From Halovenus amylolytica (GTDB lineage: Archaea > Halobacteriota > Halobacteria > Halobacteriales > Haloarculaceae), in assembly GCA_004015825.1 (NCBI GenBank), contig SAYS01000005.1, positions 62,001 through 126,000 on the forward strand: a stretch of 64,000 nt of DNA, given 5' to 3'. Shown here one piece after another: positions 37,890 to 46,693 of this stretch. Numbering within the stretch: position 1 is the first letter of the stretch; each line of letters opens with the position of its first letter. Made by a program: the position numbers and the translations under genes. A model generated the notes under the pieces. It saw only the letters and a list, made by a program, of their open reading frames with translations. It did no database searches and was not told the DNA's origin.

Positions 37890-39614
37890 ATGTCGAGAAC
37901 GTCAGAGGACAGTGTAGATCGTCGGCTGGTCGAGGTTGCGGAAAAACTCCAGGTCGCCAACGATACACTACAGATTACACAGGTACGGTTGAATCAGCTA
38001 AGCAACGAGCCGGATGTCGACGAGGACAATCTCGACGGCGTCGCCGCGACAGCGCTGGCACTCTCCTGTCGTGAGGACGGACTCCCCGTCAGCGAACACG
38101 ACATCGAGAAAGCGTGGTCGGAGACGCTCGATTCCGCGGACAACGAGGTCACTATCTCCCACCAGCAACTCGAAGCTGTCGGCAGCTATCTCGATATCGA
38201 CGAAGTACCGCCACACCCAAACGCCCTCGTCAAAGGGTTCGGTGAGGCTGTCGAGATGCCGGAGAACATGATCAACGTCGCCCATCGGCTGCTGTACGAC
38301 TGCTTCGAGATGAACCCGTCCGTCATCGCGAGCGGGACGTCGCCGGCAGCAACTGCGGGCGCAGTCCTCTCACTTGCGGCCTCGGTAAACGACAGGGAGC
38401 AGAGTTACGGACAGGACGCACTCGGGAAGGTCTCCGGGACCAACGAGGTAACGATCCGGAACCGTCGAGAGGTGCTCGAAGACCTCCTCGGAGAGGACCG
38501 CCTGCAGGACGACCGGTATCGCGTCGGACCAGATGCGCCCGCGACGGACACGACGGAGCAGTCGACAGCTGCCGACGGTGCCGGCACGACAGAGCCACCA
38601 ACCGAGCAGACTGGTTCGAGGACGGAAACAGCGGAGTCAGGCGAGGAGTCACAGGGGACAGCAGAAACGGAAGGAAGCGAGTTCCTCGAAACGGTCAGGT
38701 CGATGTATCCGGACGAACTCCCGACGACAGAGAGCGTCGCCGAAGCCCACGACGCCAGTACAGACGCCGTCAGCGCAGCACTTGCCGAGCTGTCGACCAG
38801 CGGGACGATCCAGCAAAAACGCGCCGGATCGGTCACGGTCTGGGTTCCAGCCGAACAGGACGCCGTCGAAGCCGACCTGACTGTCGACGCCGTCGAGACG
38901 GAGGTCGACGCGCTCGTCGAAGACCTCGACATCGGCGCCTCGACCCGACTGCTCGCACGCGGGATGGTAAGTGATGCAGTCGACAACGTAGGTGTCGAGG
39001 ATGCCGCCGAACTGGCCGGTGCAGTGATCGTCGCGGCGGCACGGATGGAAGATCTCGACACAGATACGGTCGAGGTCGCCGAACTACGGGAGTTCGAACC
39101 ACGTGTCATCACGCAGCGGCTCGACACCTTGGAAGAGACAGTCGACGTCGAGATCCCACGCCGTGATGCAGACGAGATCATCGGCGAAGTTGCCGACGAA
39201 CTCGGACTCTCGGAGGCCCTTCGGGAGGAGAGTCTCACCTCGCTGGAGCGATACGATGGGGACGAAGAGTACACGCCTGCCGAACTCGGTGCTGGCGCGG
39301 TCATGTTCGCCGCCACGGTCAATGCAACAGAACTCGACGTCGGTGCGGTCTCAGCTATCAGCGGTGCAGATCCAGATCACATCACCGATGCGATGAACAG
39401 CGTGGTCGTCTCACTGTGTCTGGGACTCGTCCGCGGCGATATCGCGTACGAGGACTGTTCGTGGACGACAGAGCTGCTCGAATCCGAACTGTCACCCGAG
39501 ATCGGTGACTCCTACACCGGACGTGTCATCGCACTTACGAAGACCTACACTGCTGGTCGAGAAGCACGGTACGTCGACGACGGGACGCTCGACATCGTTC
39601 TCGGCGAGGAGTAG
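37890..39614 (+). CDS. TFB-like protein with four cyclin-like segments and a central winged helix
   Basis: A 574-residue protein. Residues about 10-105 and 108-203 match the two cyclin folds of TFB/TFIIB: GVAATALALSCREDGLPVSE in the first and TSPAATAGAVLSLAASVND with NEVTIRNRREVL in the second. There is no N-terminal zinc ribbon or B-finger. A disordered acidic linker (204-262) leads to a winged-helix segment (262-320, SVAEAHDASTDAVSAALAEL). The C-terminal 330-415 and 423-510 again look cyclin-like (YTPAELGAGAVMFAATVNAT, SGADPDHITDAMN). Without the ribbon it should not recruit RNA polymerase in the standard way, so it may compete with TFBs or act as a scaffold or regulator. It converges on the P450 gene. 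Confidence 0.8.
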   Translation: MSRTSEDSVDRRLVEVAEKLQVANDTLQITQVRLNQLSNEPDVDEDNLDGVAATALALSCREDGLPVSEHDIEKAWSETLDSADNEVTISHQQLEAVGSYLDIDEVPPHPNALVKGFGEAVEMPENMINVAHRLLYDCFEMNPSVIASGTSPAATAGAVLSLAASVNDREQSYGQDALGKVSGTNEVTIRNRREVLEDLLGEDRLQDDRYRVGPDAPATDTTEQSTAADGAGTTEPPTEQTGSRTETAESGEESQGTAETEGSEFLETVRSMYPDELPTTESVAEAHDASTDAVSAALAELSTSGTIQQKRAGSVTVWVPAEQDAVEADLTVDAVETEVDALVEDLDIGASTRLLARGMVSDAVDNVGVEDAAELAGAVIVAAARMEDLDTDTVEVAELREFEPRVITQRLDTLEETVDVEIPRRDADEIIGEVADELGLSEALREESLTSLERYDGDEEYTPAELGAGAVMFAATVNATELDVGAVSAISGADPDHITDAMNSVVVSLCLGLVRGDIAYEDCSWTTELLESELSPEIGDSYTGRVIALTKTYTAGREARYVDDGTLDIVLGEE

Positions 39615-42452: not shown

Positions 42453-42710
42453 TTATGCACTGACCAGCCCGGGACAACTCGCCCGCACCTCGCCGCCATC
42501 AGTGACGGTGACATAACAGCCCTCGATACGAAACGAGACCGATAGCTCGATCGAATCGTTGCCGCTAGATTGTGCTGCGAGCCGACTCAGTGCCTGTGTA
42601 TCGATCACGTCTCCAATGCGTTCGTTGATCTCATCCCGTTCGATATCCCGTTCCTCGGCGATTGCGGTGACGATATTCCAGCACAGGGTTTCCGCGTTGT
42701 TGTCTGCCAT
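42453..42710 (-). CDS. HalOD1 output domain protein
   Basis: An 85-residue stand-alone HalOD1 domain. LCWNIVTAIAEERDIERDEIN and LSVSFRIEGCYVTVTDGGEVRA match the haloarchaeal output domain often found at the ends of response regulators. It is next to a large PAS-GAF-HTH regulator on the same strand, suggesting one signalling unit. A TATA-like AGCTATACT lies about 26 bases upstream. The ATG one codon earlier is possible. Confidence 0.88.
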   Translation of the reverse strand: MADNNAETLCWNIVTAIAEERDIERDEINERIGDVIDTQALSRLAAQSSGNDSIELSVSFRIEGCYVTVTDGGEVRASCPGLVSA

Positions 42711-42864
42711 CATCCTGTTTGTACAGTACAGCTATACTGGCATGGCCGTTACCAGAACGCCAGTAGTATGTCAACGAATCGTATACAACATGTATAGAAT
42801 GACCCGGTCGTGACTGCAGACACACGACGCTAACCGGCGAGAGTACAGCAGGTCCGAAAGATCG

Positions 42865-45363
42865 CTACTCGTCGAAAAGGAGTGAAAACAGTTTCCGCTC
42901 CGTCGTTCGCAGATGACGGTTGAAGGTTGGCTGTGTAATACCGAGCGATTCGGCGACCTCCTCACCAGTACTGGCCCGGGGCCACTCGAAGTAGCCACTG
43001 AGATACGCTGTCCGGAGCGCCTCGTGTTGCCGGTCGGTGAGTGTCTCCGAAACGGACCCCGGAAGTTCACCTGGCCCGCCCCTGCCCGATACCCGCTCCG
43101 TGCGTGTTCGGAGTTCGACGTTTGCGTACCGCGTTTCGAGTGCCTCGATCACCTGTCTGACGTCTGCAGATCGTGGCAGAACGGCAGTTAGTTCGATGCC
43201 ATCGGCGTCGGCGCGGAGCCGTTCGACATCTGCACTGTAATCGGCGAGGCGGTCGATGACGGTCCGATCTGTCACTGTCACAGCCGAGCGCGGATCGTCA
43301 GCGTCACCGAGTGCTCGGACAGCCTCGACGGAGAGTACGGCCTCTGTCAGTCCAGTCGGATCAGCGTCAGCGGTGAGATACAGAATCGATCCGTCGCCAT
43401 CGCCTGGAACGACCCCTTCGATTTCGATCGGCTCCCCGAGTGCAGTCGCGATACGTGAGGAGAGCGTCTCTGGATCCACAATCTGCAGCCCCAGTTCGAC
43501 CTGTGACTCGCTTTGCAGCGAGCGTTTCGTTTCGAGACTGTTGATCGCGTTCCCGATCGTCTCACCGAGATCGTCGAGGAGTTCACCGAGGATGTCGTCG
43601 AATGCTCTGGGTTGATTCGCGTACACGGATAACACACCGTAGGAGAGATCGTTGTACTGGATCGGGACACTCGCAATCGACTGGAACCCACGCACGAGTG
43701 CGCGCTCACGCCAGTCCGATTCGTGGAGGCCAGCAGAAACGTTGGAGACGATAGCCTGTGAGCCGGACCCGAGGACGCGCAGCGTTGGCTCGGCGTTCTC
43801 CCCAGTCGGAGTCTCTCTGGGATCAGTACCGATCACCGACAGCTCGTCGAGATAGCCATCACTATCGCCGGCCAGGGCAACTGTGTTCAGGCCCCCGTCA
43901 CTCCGGTAGGTTTCACCGAACCAGGCGAAGGAAATCCTGTCAGAACCAGCCAGATGGTCGCAGACTGCCGCCGCAATGTCACCCAGTGAGTCAGCTTCGA
44001 CCAGCGCCCCGTTGATCTGTCGGAGCAGGTCGTTGAACTCCCGGGCCCGTTCGAGCTGGGTGTTCTGCTCGGCGAGCGCCTCACGACGCCGGGAGAGTTC
44101 GGCCTCGCGCTCGACCCGACCCAGCGCAGCGACCGCATTTGCGGCGAGGAGTTCTACGGATTCCGTGGCGCTGTTCGGGGAGGTATGGGCGCCGAACTCG
44201 ATCTGCAACAATCCATACTCCTCCAGGGATGCAAACAGTGTATCCTCGGCTGTCGAGCCGTCGTCGTCACGCTGGATCACTCGACCAGTCGGTTGCGTAC
44301 CGGAGTCGTCGATCTGTTGATTGTCGGAATCGGGTAGCTCGCCGTCCCCCTTGCTGACGACAGCTGTCCCTGTTGCGAAGGCCTCCCACTCGTCTGTCCC
44401 AGGGCCGGCGGGCGCGGACTCCGTGCCCACAGCAGCCACGGGAACGAGTCGGGAGTGTTCCGTGTCGAAACTGTATGCAACGACCGTGGCATCGGGCCAG
44501 ACAGTCTGGGCGACGTCGACGATCGTTTCGGCGACTGTCTCCGTATCCTCCGCTCGGAGTAACGTTCGAGCCGATTTGTTCAGCGCGCCGAGCGTGTGCT
44601 CGTGTTGGCGACGCTCCCGGATATCCCGAAACACACCGACACGCCGTCGATCCCCGTTTGCGAACTCGACTGTCGAGAACCGTGTCTCGATCGGGATCGA
44701 CTCACCGGACGCGCTCTGAATCGACGACTCGATCAACCCCACGTCGGAGTCACGTAGCTGTTCGATGATTTCAGTCGCCATCGAGAGCGTCTCGTCACCT
44801 GCCAGCTTCGAGGCGTGCGAGCCGACGAGTTCGTCCCGGCTGTAGCCCGTGATATCCGCGACTGCGTCGTTGATCGAGGTGATGACGAACGCCTCGTCGA
44901 GCGTGTACACGCCGTCTTCGAGTGTATCCAGTGTCTGTCGTGTTCGCTTCAGTTCGCGTGCGAGCCCGGTGTACTCCGTCACGTCCCATAGCTGGAGAAC
45001 AGCCACATCCCCGATCGGCAGTGCACGGACCACGAGTCGTTCGTCCGGTTTACCAGTGAGTTCGTGGTCGACCGGCTCCCCGGTCTCGAAGGCCTCTCTG
45101 GTGGTGGCTGTTATCTGGTCGACGATGTCGCTGTGAAGCACCGCCTGCTCGTGGTCCGGACGGTCCACGACGAGCTCGGAAAGTCGTCCAGTAATCCCGG
45201 AAGCCCCGATTACGGTAAGCGACGAATCGACGACGAGAAACCCGGTCGTTCCGGGCCGAAAGTTATCTGCAATCTCACCATCTAGCTCGAACGCTTCTGT
45301 CAGCGAGCCCCCGTCCTCGGCTTCCGATCCCGGCGACTCATTCTGACGAGACTCCTCTGACAC
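42865..45363 (-). CDS. Bat-like sensor-regulator: PAS-PAS-GAF-GAF-HTH-10
   Basis: An 832-residue protein starting at GTG 45363, supported by a TATA box (GAATAAAGT as read on plus) about 28 bases upstream. In order: a PAS-like domain (about 40-130), a second PAS (YTLDEAFVITSINDAVADITGYSRDELVG, about 150-250), GAF (about 260-420), a short coiled coil, another GAF (440-605), the bacterio-opsin-activator middle domain (615-770) and the C-terminal HTH_10 (LTDRQHEALRTAYLSGYFEWPRAST, 775-832). Bat in Halobacterium activates bop, brp and crtB1 under low oxygen and light. This protein has no histidine kinase domain and is thus a one-component sensor. It is divergent from the terpene-synthase-like gene. 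Confidence 0.9.
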   Translation of the reverse strand: MSEESRQNESPGSEAEDGGSLTEAFELDGEIADNFRPGTTGFLVVDSSLTVIGASGITGRLSELVVDRPDHEQAVLHSDIVDQITATTREAFETGEPVDHELTGKPDERLVVRALPIGDVAVLQLWDVTEYTGLARELKRTRQTLDTLEDGVYTLDEAFVITSINDAVADITGYSRDELVGSHASKLAGDETLSMATEIIEQLRDSDVGLIESSIQSASGESIPIETRFSTVEFANGDRRRVGVFRDIRERRQHEHTLGALNKSARTLLRAEDTETVAETIVDVAQTVWPDATVVAYSFDTEHSRLVPVAAVGTESAPAGPGTDEWEAFATGTAVVSKGDGELPDSDNQQIDDSGTQPTGRVIQRDDDGSTAEDTLFASLEEYGLLQIEFGAHTSPNSATESVELLAANAVAALGRVEREAELSRRREALAEQNTQLERAREFNDLLRQINGALVEADSLGDIAAAVCDHLAGSDRISFAWFGETYRSDGGLNTVALAGDSDGYLDELSVIGTDPRETPTGENAEPTLRVLGSGSQAIVSNVSAGLHESDWRERALVRGFQSIASVPIQYNDLSYGVLSVYANQPRAFDDILGELLDDLGETIGNAINSLETKRSLQSESQVELGLQIVDPETLSSRIATALGEPIEIEGVVPGDGDGSILYLTADADPTGLTEAVLSVEAVRALGDADDPRSAVTVTDRTVIDRLADYSADVERLRADADGIELTAVLPRSADVRQVIEALETRYANVELRTRTERVSGRGGPGELPGSVSETLTDRQHEALRTAYLSGYFEWPRASTGEEVAESLGITQPTFNRHLRTTERKLFSLLFDE

Positions 45364-45685
45364 ACCCCGGTATTCTCGTTGCAACTGAATAAAGTTCTCT
45401 CTACGTACACGAATCAGTGATAGTACTAGATCTCTATATATCACGGTGACAGGACAGGTGGTGATCTTCAACAGTACGACTCGACAGACACTGTTTCCAA
45501 CGTGACTCTACTAGCATCCCCGTAGTTAGTAGGACAGACTTATCGCCGATAGTATCTCTAATCGCCATACTGCAGATGTTCAATAATATTACCATATTGG
45601 ACATGAAATTCACGCAACCATACTTTTTATCACGGAATGAAATACGAACAAAAGTATTAAGAGTGGTAAGAGTTGACTAATCTCT
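45364..45685. other. Divergent promoter region between the Bat-like regulator and the terpene-synthase-like gene
   Basis: A 322-base gap, AT-rich from about 45490 to 45665, without a gene. AGTATTAAG at about 45653 is 28 bases before ATG 45686, and GAATAAAGT at 45388-45396 serves the minus-strand regulator. Further TATA-like runs near 45440 and 45621 exist. It is the natural place for Bat-type binding sites, though I did not identify a repeat. Confidence 0.6.
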
Positions 45686-46693
45686 ATGGCACACAGGCTG
45701 GGTCACACCGTTACGCCACACGGGACCGAAATCACGGCCGGTACTGCTGCGGAGTATGCACAGTCGATCAAGACAGTAACCCTTCCGGGATCAGTCGAGC
45801 GGATCGCAGACGAGTACGACGATGTCGTGGGTGACCGCGATCGGTTCCTCTGGAAGTGGATTCATAATCTGTTCGACGAGTTCACACTCTCGTCGGTTGC
45901 CACGGACAGAGCAGATCTGGTCCGGAACCAGAAGACCCTGCTGACGATTTTCATCACGACACTCGACGACCTGGCCGAGTTAGACGGTGATAGCGAGACG
46001 TTCGACCGGGCGCGGCGGATCCCGTTCCGCGCACCCGGAGAGACCGTGAGTGGCGAGGGCGACAACGTGGAGATCGTCGACTTTCTCGTCGATCTCTGGG
46101 ACGGCATCGAAGCGGAACTCGAAACGGCACCGCGGTACGAGGAGTTCGCGAGGATCTTCGAGTACGATTTCAGACAGACAGTCAACGCGATGGATTACTC
46201 CGGGTTGCTGAACGACAACCCGGTGGCGGCAAATCGGGCGGAAGCCGAACGGTACGACGCCTACAACATGGCAGTCTTCCCGTACGCGTGCGTGGACCTG
46301 ATGTACTCGCCGACGTTCAACGCCCGCGAACTCGGCACACTCCGGAGCCTGCTCTGTGAACTCCAGCAGATGGCACGCATCGGCAACTGGATCACAACCT
46401 GGGAACGCGAACTGGCCGAAGGCGACGTCAGTTCCGGAATCGCCGTCTGTGCACTCAAGCGGGGCGTCATCACACCCGCGGAAGTCACGGACCCCAATCA
46501 GGCGACTGTCGACCGGCTGGTCGACCGCATCAAATCACACGGGATCGAAGCCGAGTTCATGCGGGAGTGGGAGATCCGGTCGCGAGCAGTGCGCAAACGA
46601 ACCGGCGAACTCGACAGCGTCGACGCCGAAGCGATGGTCGATGGCTTCGAGACTGTCATGGACCACCACCTGACCAGTGACGGCTTCAAGTAG
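45686..46693 (+). CDS. Class I terpene synthase-like protein
   Basis: A 335-residue all-helical soluble protein, the usual length of bacterial class I terpene synthases. The aspartate-rich motif appears as D94-D95-L-A-E98 in FITTLDDLAELDG. The NSE triad appears as N234-x3-T238-x3-E242 in RIGNWITTWERELAEGD. An arginine, R189, lies 45 residues upstream of the triad, where the diphosphate-sensing arginine is expected. I do not see a clear C-terminal RY pair. If active it would ionise a polyprenyl diphosphate with three Mg ions and form a terpene hydrocarbon or alcohol. A leaderless promoter precedes it, and a Bat-like regulator is divergent. Its convergent neighbour is of unknown function. Confidence 0.65.
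   Translation: MAHRLGHTVTPHGTEITAGTAAEYAQSIKTVTLPGSVERIADEYDDVVGDRDRFLWKWIHNLFDEFTLSSVATDRADLVRNQKTLLTIFITTLDDLAELDGDSETFDRARRIPFRAPGETVSGEGDNVEIVDFLVDLWDGIEAELETAPRYEEFARIFEYDFRQTVNAMDYSGLLNDNPVAANRAEAERYDAYNMAVFPYACVDLMYSPTFNARELGTLRSLLCELQQMARIGNWITTWERELAEGDVSSGIAVCALKRGVITPAEVTDPNQATVDRLVDRIKSHGIEAEFMREWEIRSRAVRKRTGELDSVDAEAMVDGFETVMDHHLTSDGFK

Follow-up and report, generated by a model that had tools for sequence, protein, structure and literature searches.

A widespread subfamily of probable class I terpene synthases in archaea and bacteria, several branches of which are encoded beside sensory genes

The gene at positions 45686..46693 (+ strand) of the window, which is the whole 64,000-nucleotide stretch of Halovenus amylolytica DNA analysed here, begins with ATG and encodes a protein of 335 amino acids that very probably belongs to a new and widespread subfamily of class I terpene synthases. 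What is new is the subfamily as a whole, which is found with intact catalytic motifs across archaeal classes and in a bacterial phylum where small genomes predominate. A larger finding is that several branches of the family have sensory genes as neighbours. The evidence is computational, and consists of the predicted fold, the conservation of the motifs and the linkage of genes. We consider it likely that this archaeal and bacterial subfamily consists of catalytically competent, Mg-dependent class I terpene synthases, with expression often under sensory control.

Two motifs had been pointed out in this open reading frame by a sequence-only reading, and both are confirmed and conserved across the family rows described below. 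These are DDLAE (residues 94-98, 45965..45979, +), a metal motif of the DDxx(D/E) type, and NWITTWERE (residues 234-242, 46385..46411, +), which holds R241 and an NSE/DTE-type triad of N234, T238 and E242. Arg189 (46250..46252, +), proposed in the same reading as the diphosphate sensor, lies in helix 184-195 of the predicted structure, 45 residues ahead of N234 in the window protein. The earlier failure to find a clear RY pair also stands, as RY occurs only at 150 and 189 and nowhere near the C-terminus. To gauge chance occurrence of the motifs, 246 non-family proteins of 250-450 amino acids from the fetched loci were used as a background. DDxx[DE] followed 110-170 residues on by [ND]xxx[ST]xxxE is found in 50 of 54 family proteins and 3 of the 246 non-family proteins, and none of the latter (0/246) has the same pair with a triad starting in N. 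Among 20,000 shuffles of the window protein, the pair appears in 2.3%, and the version with the N-initial triad in 0.6%. Given these chance frequencies, the motif pattern alone is suggestive only.

The fold was predicted with AlphaFold2, from 15 homologues in a first model (pLDDT 83.9, pTM 0.84) and from 67 sequences in a second (pLDDT 92.7, pTM 0.91). DSSP agrees on both models with the original description of the protein as all-helical, the exceptions being two bridges, each of one residue, in the second model's disordered N-terminus. In that model, DDLAE ends helix 73-98, and the triad sits on helix 213-244, after a helix break at 196. Structural searches, which the sequence-only reading had called for, return the class I terpenoid synthase alpha bundle. 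In a VIA-align comparison of the second model, every one of the 50 entries listed from the 1000 best chains is a terpene synthase that has a class I domain, aligned over 266-292 residues at Z 20.6-22.1, rmsd 2.9-4.2 and 9-14% identity; the entries listed for the first model have Z of 20.5-22.3. These rows are tied, and are therefore uninformative on substrate. Foldseek, sorted by E-value, mixes terpene synthases with FPP synthases (best E 4e-5 and 1.5e-4), with TM-scores of just 0.43-0.62 among the matches listed for the second model. The window protein combines the predicted class I terpenoid synthase alpha fold with DDxx(D/E) and an NSE/DTE triad.

Sequence profiles point the same way at lower scores. 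The proposed search with terpene synthase profiles did match Pfam PF19086 (Terpene_syn_C_2), but at 17 bits, under the curated cut-off of 23.7. Family-wide, matches to PF19086 reach E<=0.01 in 41 of 67 members, the strongest at 2.2e-6. Four bacterial relatives were scanned with Pfam; three have no match and one matches PF19086 at 18.4 bits, below cut-off. The window protein has no NCBIfam match at E<=10, and a PDB search with its single sequence returned none. The 67-row profile has five weak matches in the PDB (E 0.24-1.7), all of which are terpene synthases, and the triads are in register in the four alignments shown (three of them to near-identical chains), for example with Sat1646.

Conservation was assessed in an alignment of 67 rows, 20-70% identical to the window protein. 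An 85% identity cut reduced 103 open frames to 64 rows, of which 60 were used (L015, which is frameshifted, L025, L057 and L088 were left out), and 7 of the 11 rows of L103-L113 were added (L104, L106, L108 and L112 were omitted as near copies). Two fused members, L013 and L097, were cut down to their synthase part, and L114 (motifs lost), L115, L116 and L117 (fragments) and L011 (cut by a contig end) stand outside the alignment. The alignment is limited to members with a fetched locus. L014 is its one bacterial row.

Nine residues, R51, W58, D95, D204, N234, T238, W239, E242 and D247, are found in 67/67 rows. Position 94 is Asp in 63 rows and Asn in 4, and position 98 is Glu or Asp in 64, the other three being Lys in rows where DDSCD is split by an alignment gap. 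R241 (66/67), R220 and R231 (63/67 each) and W235 (62/67) are close to invariant, and the usual triad context is N-W-x-x-T-W-x-R-E. A wider set of nine rows, 21-33% identical to the window protein and spanning haloarchaea, other archaea and five bacterial loci, retains D94, D95, N234, T238, R241, E242 and D247 in 9/9, while R51, W58, D204, R220, R231 and W239 vary. R241 is thus the only one of the conserved basic residues R51, R220, R231 and R241 that is invariant in the nine-row set. The motif residues are conserved in homologues in both sets, and together with the predicted fold this conservation in distant homologues supports the original proposal of a terpene cyclase or a descendant of one. 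One element of that proposal is not supported: position 189 is Arg in just 23/67 rows, although in 9 of 10 within the window's clade, and so Arg189 is rejected as a family-wide sensor. L114 has neither catalytic motif, and because it has lost both, members of the family can be said to decay. L114:7698-8480 and L115-L117 are decayed or fragmentary members from one archaeal family (f15).

A homologue search of genome contigs confirmed 15 loci, and profile searches extended the family widely. Members were detected in 46 of the 146 genomes sampled from the window's taxonomic family, 120 of 391 from its class (about a third) and 38 of 392 from the phylum; of these last, 17 lie outside the window's class, some of them with fragments only. 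The non-halobacterial archaea that carry it appear to be methanogens. Among bacteria, the phylum that includes G763, the metagenome-assembled genome (MAG) behind locus L014, has the family in 5 of the 379 genomes sampled, and in 4 of 286 in another sample. This MAG is 0.7 Mb, its contig has 30% GC and most genomes listed for its phylum are 0.5-1.1 Mb; the phylum is presumably Patescibacteria-like. The NCBI label Lysobacteraceae on the L014 contig looks wrong. One scan of viral contigs gave a single pattern match, and none was confirmed as a relative.

Terpene cyclases of this type had been called rarely described in archaea. The literature searched agrees, but the genes themselves are common, as the counts for the window's class attest. 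A literature search, taken outside preprints and most subscription journals, turned up no class I terpene synthase described from archaea, which is a weak negative; in the same literature the phrase "archaeal terpene synthase" is absent, and nothing was found on the pairing of synthase and kinase in archaea. The terpene clusters counted in archaeal surveys are, we presume, mostly phytoene and squalene synthases. Such clusters are counted in antiSMASH surveys of archaea, as seen in the parts of those papers covered here (PMC12144867, PMC8600319).

In the tree, the nearest relatives of the window gene come from Halorubrum, Halobellus and the genomes of f4 and f7, which are other genera and families, suggesting, from gene phylogeny, spread by horizontal transfer. 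The gene is found in 5 of 18 genomes of the window's genus, and is therefore accessory. Six plasmid copies are annotated "hypothetical protein", one of which also overlaps an HTH protein, and in one genome two synthase copies lie in tandem (L076:7326-9708).

In the window, the gene next to the synthase is divergent from it and encodes a PAS-GAF-BAT-HTH_10 regulator of the bacterio-opsin-activator type (42865..45471, - strand, up to 868 amino acids; Pfam BAT 87.8 bits, HTH_10 68.4). It is followed on its own strand by an 86-residue HalOD1 protein (42453..42713, -; PF18545, 54.4 bits). The region between regulator and synthase (45472..45685) presumably holds the promoters of both, and an alignment of eight upstream regions, gene start included, has 27 invariant columns. 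A bop-type UAS upstream of the synthase was rejected: the intergenic region does not match the pattern taken to represent it, and the window as a whole holds 26 matches against 32.75 expected. In the Halorubrum loci L001-L003, the regulators next to the synthase homologues share 60-61% identity with that of the window, whereas paralogues from the window's genome that match it over a long stretch reach at most 37%. Thus, as judged from these identities, regulator and synthase have probably travelled together as a pair.

A cytochrome P450 (39616..40989, -; PF00067, 303.9 bits) lies 4.7 kb from the synthase and is one of two found in the genome. It may be a tailoring enzyme. Its best NCBIfam matches are to models of terpene-oxidising enzymes, albaflavenone monooxygenase and pentalenene oxygenase, at 293 and 264 bits, far below the respective cut-offs of 700 and 800. 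A P450 is found within five called genes of the synthase in four loci (the window, L070, L071 and L094), and is absent within five genes in the closest relatives, L001-L011, so that it is a weak cluster link only. Beside it, positions 37890-39614 (+) encode a protein of 574 amino acids with a TFIIB repeat (36.7 bits) and a long, unassigned remainder.

Members of the BAT-type regulator cluster and of the HalOD1 cluster, to which the two window proteins belong, are found within 6 kb of the synthase in 21 and 19 of 53 haloarchaeal loci, respectively, counts that include close relatives. The nearest regulator is divergent in 15 of the 21 loci, upstream on the same strand in 5 and downstream in 1; among the same-strand upstream cases, that of L091 is split, and that of L101 is 4 kb off and merely 29% identical. 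Regulator identity was checked with Pfam in five loci (the window, L081, L087, L089 and L100). Outside the window's wider clade, most haloarchaeal loci have neither BAT regulator nor HalOD1, and many haloarchaeal loci have no adjoining sensor. Other sensory genes do adjoin the synthase in places, with PAS/HATPase kinases in L013 and L086 and FilR1-type regulators in L012 and L083. Neighbours scanned with Pfam and found non-sensory are both called genes ahead of the L101 synthase (no match) and one beside that of L074 (T2SSE). Gene order is also shared around a neighbour of metallo-beta-lactamase fold (cluster c10, 7 loci), but this was set aside as probably plain synteny.

Two of 105 open frames, both haloarchaeal, are fusions of the synthase to a receiver domain in a single open frame: REC-TS in L013:7506-8918, from a MAG, and REC-HalX-TS in L097:6763-8277. 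Archaeal response regulators similarly couple REC or REC-HalX to a domain at the C-terminus, and have HalOD1 as a partner (PMC5847659). However, no terpene synthase output domain appears among them in the parts of this two-component census covered here, and the stem "terpen" is absent from its main text.

Enrichment of sensory genes was assessed over 32 representative loci, in which 126 called genes at one or two places from the synthase were compared with 107 called genes at five or six places. The near genes include 9 matches to PAS_9, 6 to HalOD1, 5 to BAT and 5 to HATPase_c. Among the far genes, none of these four is in the nine families with at least two matches (25 of 111 families are listed), and PAS_9 has at most one. 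If the far genes held zero or one match, Fisher p would be 0.003 or 0.018 for PAS_9, 0.024 or 0.09 for HalOD1, and 0.045 or 0.15 for BAT and for HATPase_c, values that are rough because gene calling was crude and the representatives are still related.

In other lineages, sensor kinases are among the neighbours of the synthase. Among 12 non-halobacterial archaeal loci, which form a few related groups and are not independent cases, a histidine kinase adjoins the synthase in 7. All five of L109-L113 have a same-strand PAS histidine kinase as the first called gene upstream, and both L103 and L104 have one as the first gene downstream; by eye, no kinase is seen in the translations of the nearest called genes in L105-L108 and L114 (0/5). 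In the bacterial loci L014, L124, L125, L126 and L128, a same-strand histidine kinase lies within 20 bases of the synthase in 5/5, though that of L014 is split over several frames and that of L124 is cut by the contig end. A 7TM sensor region scores over cut-off in kinases of L014, L124, L126 and L125 (here in a second, farther kinase), and under cut-off in L128. These neighbours suggest that the terpene is either made on cue or itself sensed.

Genes of isoprenoid supply accompany the bacterial synthases. A polyprenyl synthetase is present in four of the five loci (L014, L124, L125 and L128, on the opposite strand in the last), and L125 also has an IPP isomerase (NF002995, 157 bits against a cut-off of 127). 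In L125:4632-11955, where all genes are on one strand, two kinases enclose the polyprenyl synthetase, the IPP isomerase and the terpene synthase, in that order. Genes resembling SAM methyltransferases are seen near the synthase in L014:186-1025, L109:6096-6902, L126:2324-3124 and, by eye, L114:6832-7572, that of L014 giving a weak match (63.9 bits against a cut-off of 400) to a model of geranyl diphosphate C-methyltransferase.

Bacterial class I terpene synthases such as Sat1646 (7e4n/7e4o), the biformene synthase LrdC (6oh8) and T-muurolol synthase (9hqm) share with the window family the alpha-bundle fold (VIA-align Z 21-22), DDxx(D/E), and an N-x3-T/S-x3-E/D triad with Arg ahead of the acid. 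The window protein differs in its low identity to them (9-14%) and its score below the PF19086 cut-off, and the family in its variable sensor Arg and frequent link to sensory proteins. Many bacterial synthases have Asp after the triad Asn, as does Sat1646, whereas the window family has Trp (62/67). Trans-isoprenyl diphosphate synthases (PF00348) have a related fold, and it is their FPP synthases that Foldseek mixes with terpene synthases. That the gene is a divergent paralogue of a GGPP or FPP synthase is nevertheless very improbable, and was rejected: where those enzymes have a second DDxxD, the window family has an NSE/DTE-type triad (NxxxTxxxE in 67/67), no FPP synthase is among the best 50 VIA-align entries listed, PF00348 is not among the Pfam matches listed for the synthase of the window, and its genome carries three other genes that do belong to PF00348. 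That these three lie on contigs other than that of the synthase counts against the terpene synthase reading. Squalene and phytoene synthases carry two DxxxD motifs. They were also rejected, since the window protein has DDxxE and NxxxTxxxE, and they are not among its three Pfam matches listed at E<=10, a listing that passes through filters dropping most weak matches. The non-canonical class IB-IF terpene synthases, like the window family, combine a class I fold with a sequence that standard annotation fails to recognise, but are described, in the part of the source covered, without known active site motifs (PMC11234867); they were rejected because DDxx(D/E) and the N/T/E triad are both present and kept in the window family.

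A further alternative is that the same metal chemistry serves an enzyme on isoprenyl diphosphates that is not a cyclase, for example a prenyltransferase, diphosphatase or former of linear alcohols. The unusual NW..TW.RE triad context and the unconserved sensor Arg are compatible with this, and certain terpene cyclases can be made to act as aromatic prenyltransferases, according to the part of the source covered (PMC7414894). However, the best 50 VIA-align entries listed are all terpene synthases and the triad is in register with that of a cyclase, and we regard a non-cyclase as improbable. We attach equally little probability to recruitment of the fold as a non-catalytic signalling domain that binds an isoprenyl diphosphate or terpene and informs its kinase, REC or BAT partners. 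It would accommodate the REC-TS and REC-HalX-TS fusions, the adjoining kinases and BAT regulators, and L114, which lacks the motifs. On the other hand, pure ligand binding does not obviously need the metal-binding residues that are kept over 67 rows, and the prenyl synthetases and IPP isomerase in the same loci as bacterial members favour turnover over a dead fold.

Catalysis by a terpene synthase, its substrate and product, and the direction of control are what we infer from these data. The enzyme would use D94/D95-xx-E98 and N234/T238/E242 to hold metal ions, bind an isoprenyl diphosphate through these ions, ionise it and release a cyclised or rearranged terpene. Since R189 varies, the candidate contacts to the diphosphate are R241 and, less certainly, R51, R220 and R231. 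Archaea produce GGPP in bulk, and for this reason GGPP is our guess for the substrate, with FPP or GFPP as possible others. In the window, expression of the synthase would be controlled by the divergent PAS-GAF-BAT-HTH_10 regulator with the HalOD1 protein, and elsewhere by PAS or 7TM histidine kinases or a fused REC domain; in some relatives, sensory control may perhaps extend to activity.

More tentatively, and with less than even probability, the loci may encode a terpenoid signalling module, in which the synthase is the enzyme that makes or executes a signal and is paired with a cognate sensor: a 7TM or PAS histidine kinase, a BAT regulator with HalOD1, or a fused REC domain. The bacterial loci would then have their own supply of prenyl diphosphate, and in a variant of the same reading the REC fusions would be terpene synthases switched by phosphorylation. 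If true, this would be a terpene analogue of the synthase and receptor pairs of quorum sensing, common to haloarchaea, to further members of the Halobacteriota and to bacteria with small genomes.

According to the part covered of a 2023 paper (PMC10105419), halocin and bacterioruberin were the only secondary metabolites with a confident link to an archaeal gene cluster. Because so few archaeal clusters are linked to metabolites, the synthase family is a testable source of archaeal terpenes. Its repeated pairing with sensor kinases, REC domains, BAT regulators and HalOD1 proteins suggests that terpene chemistry and cell signalling are connected in a way that is little known, and raises the question of whether terpenes act as archaeal signals or terpene making is under sensory control.
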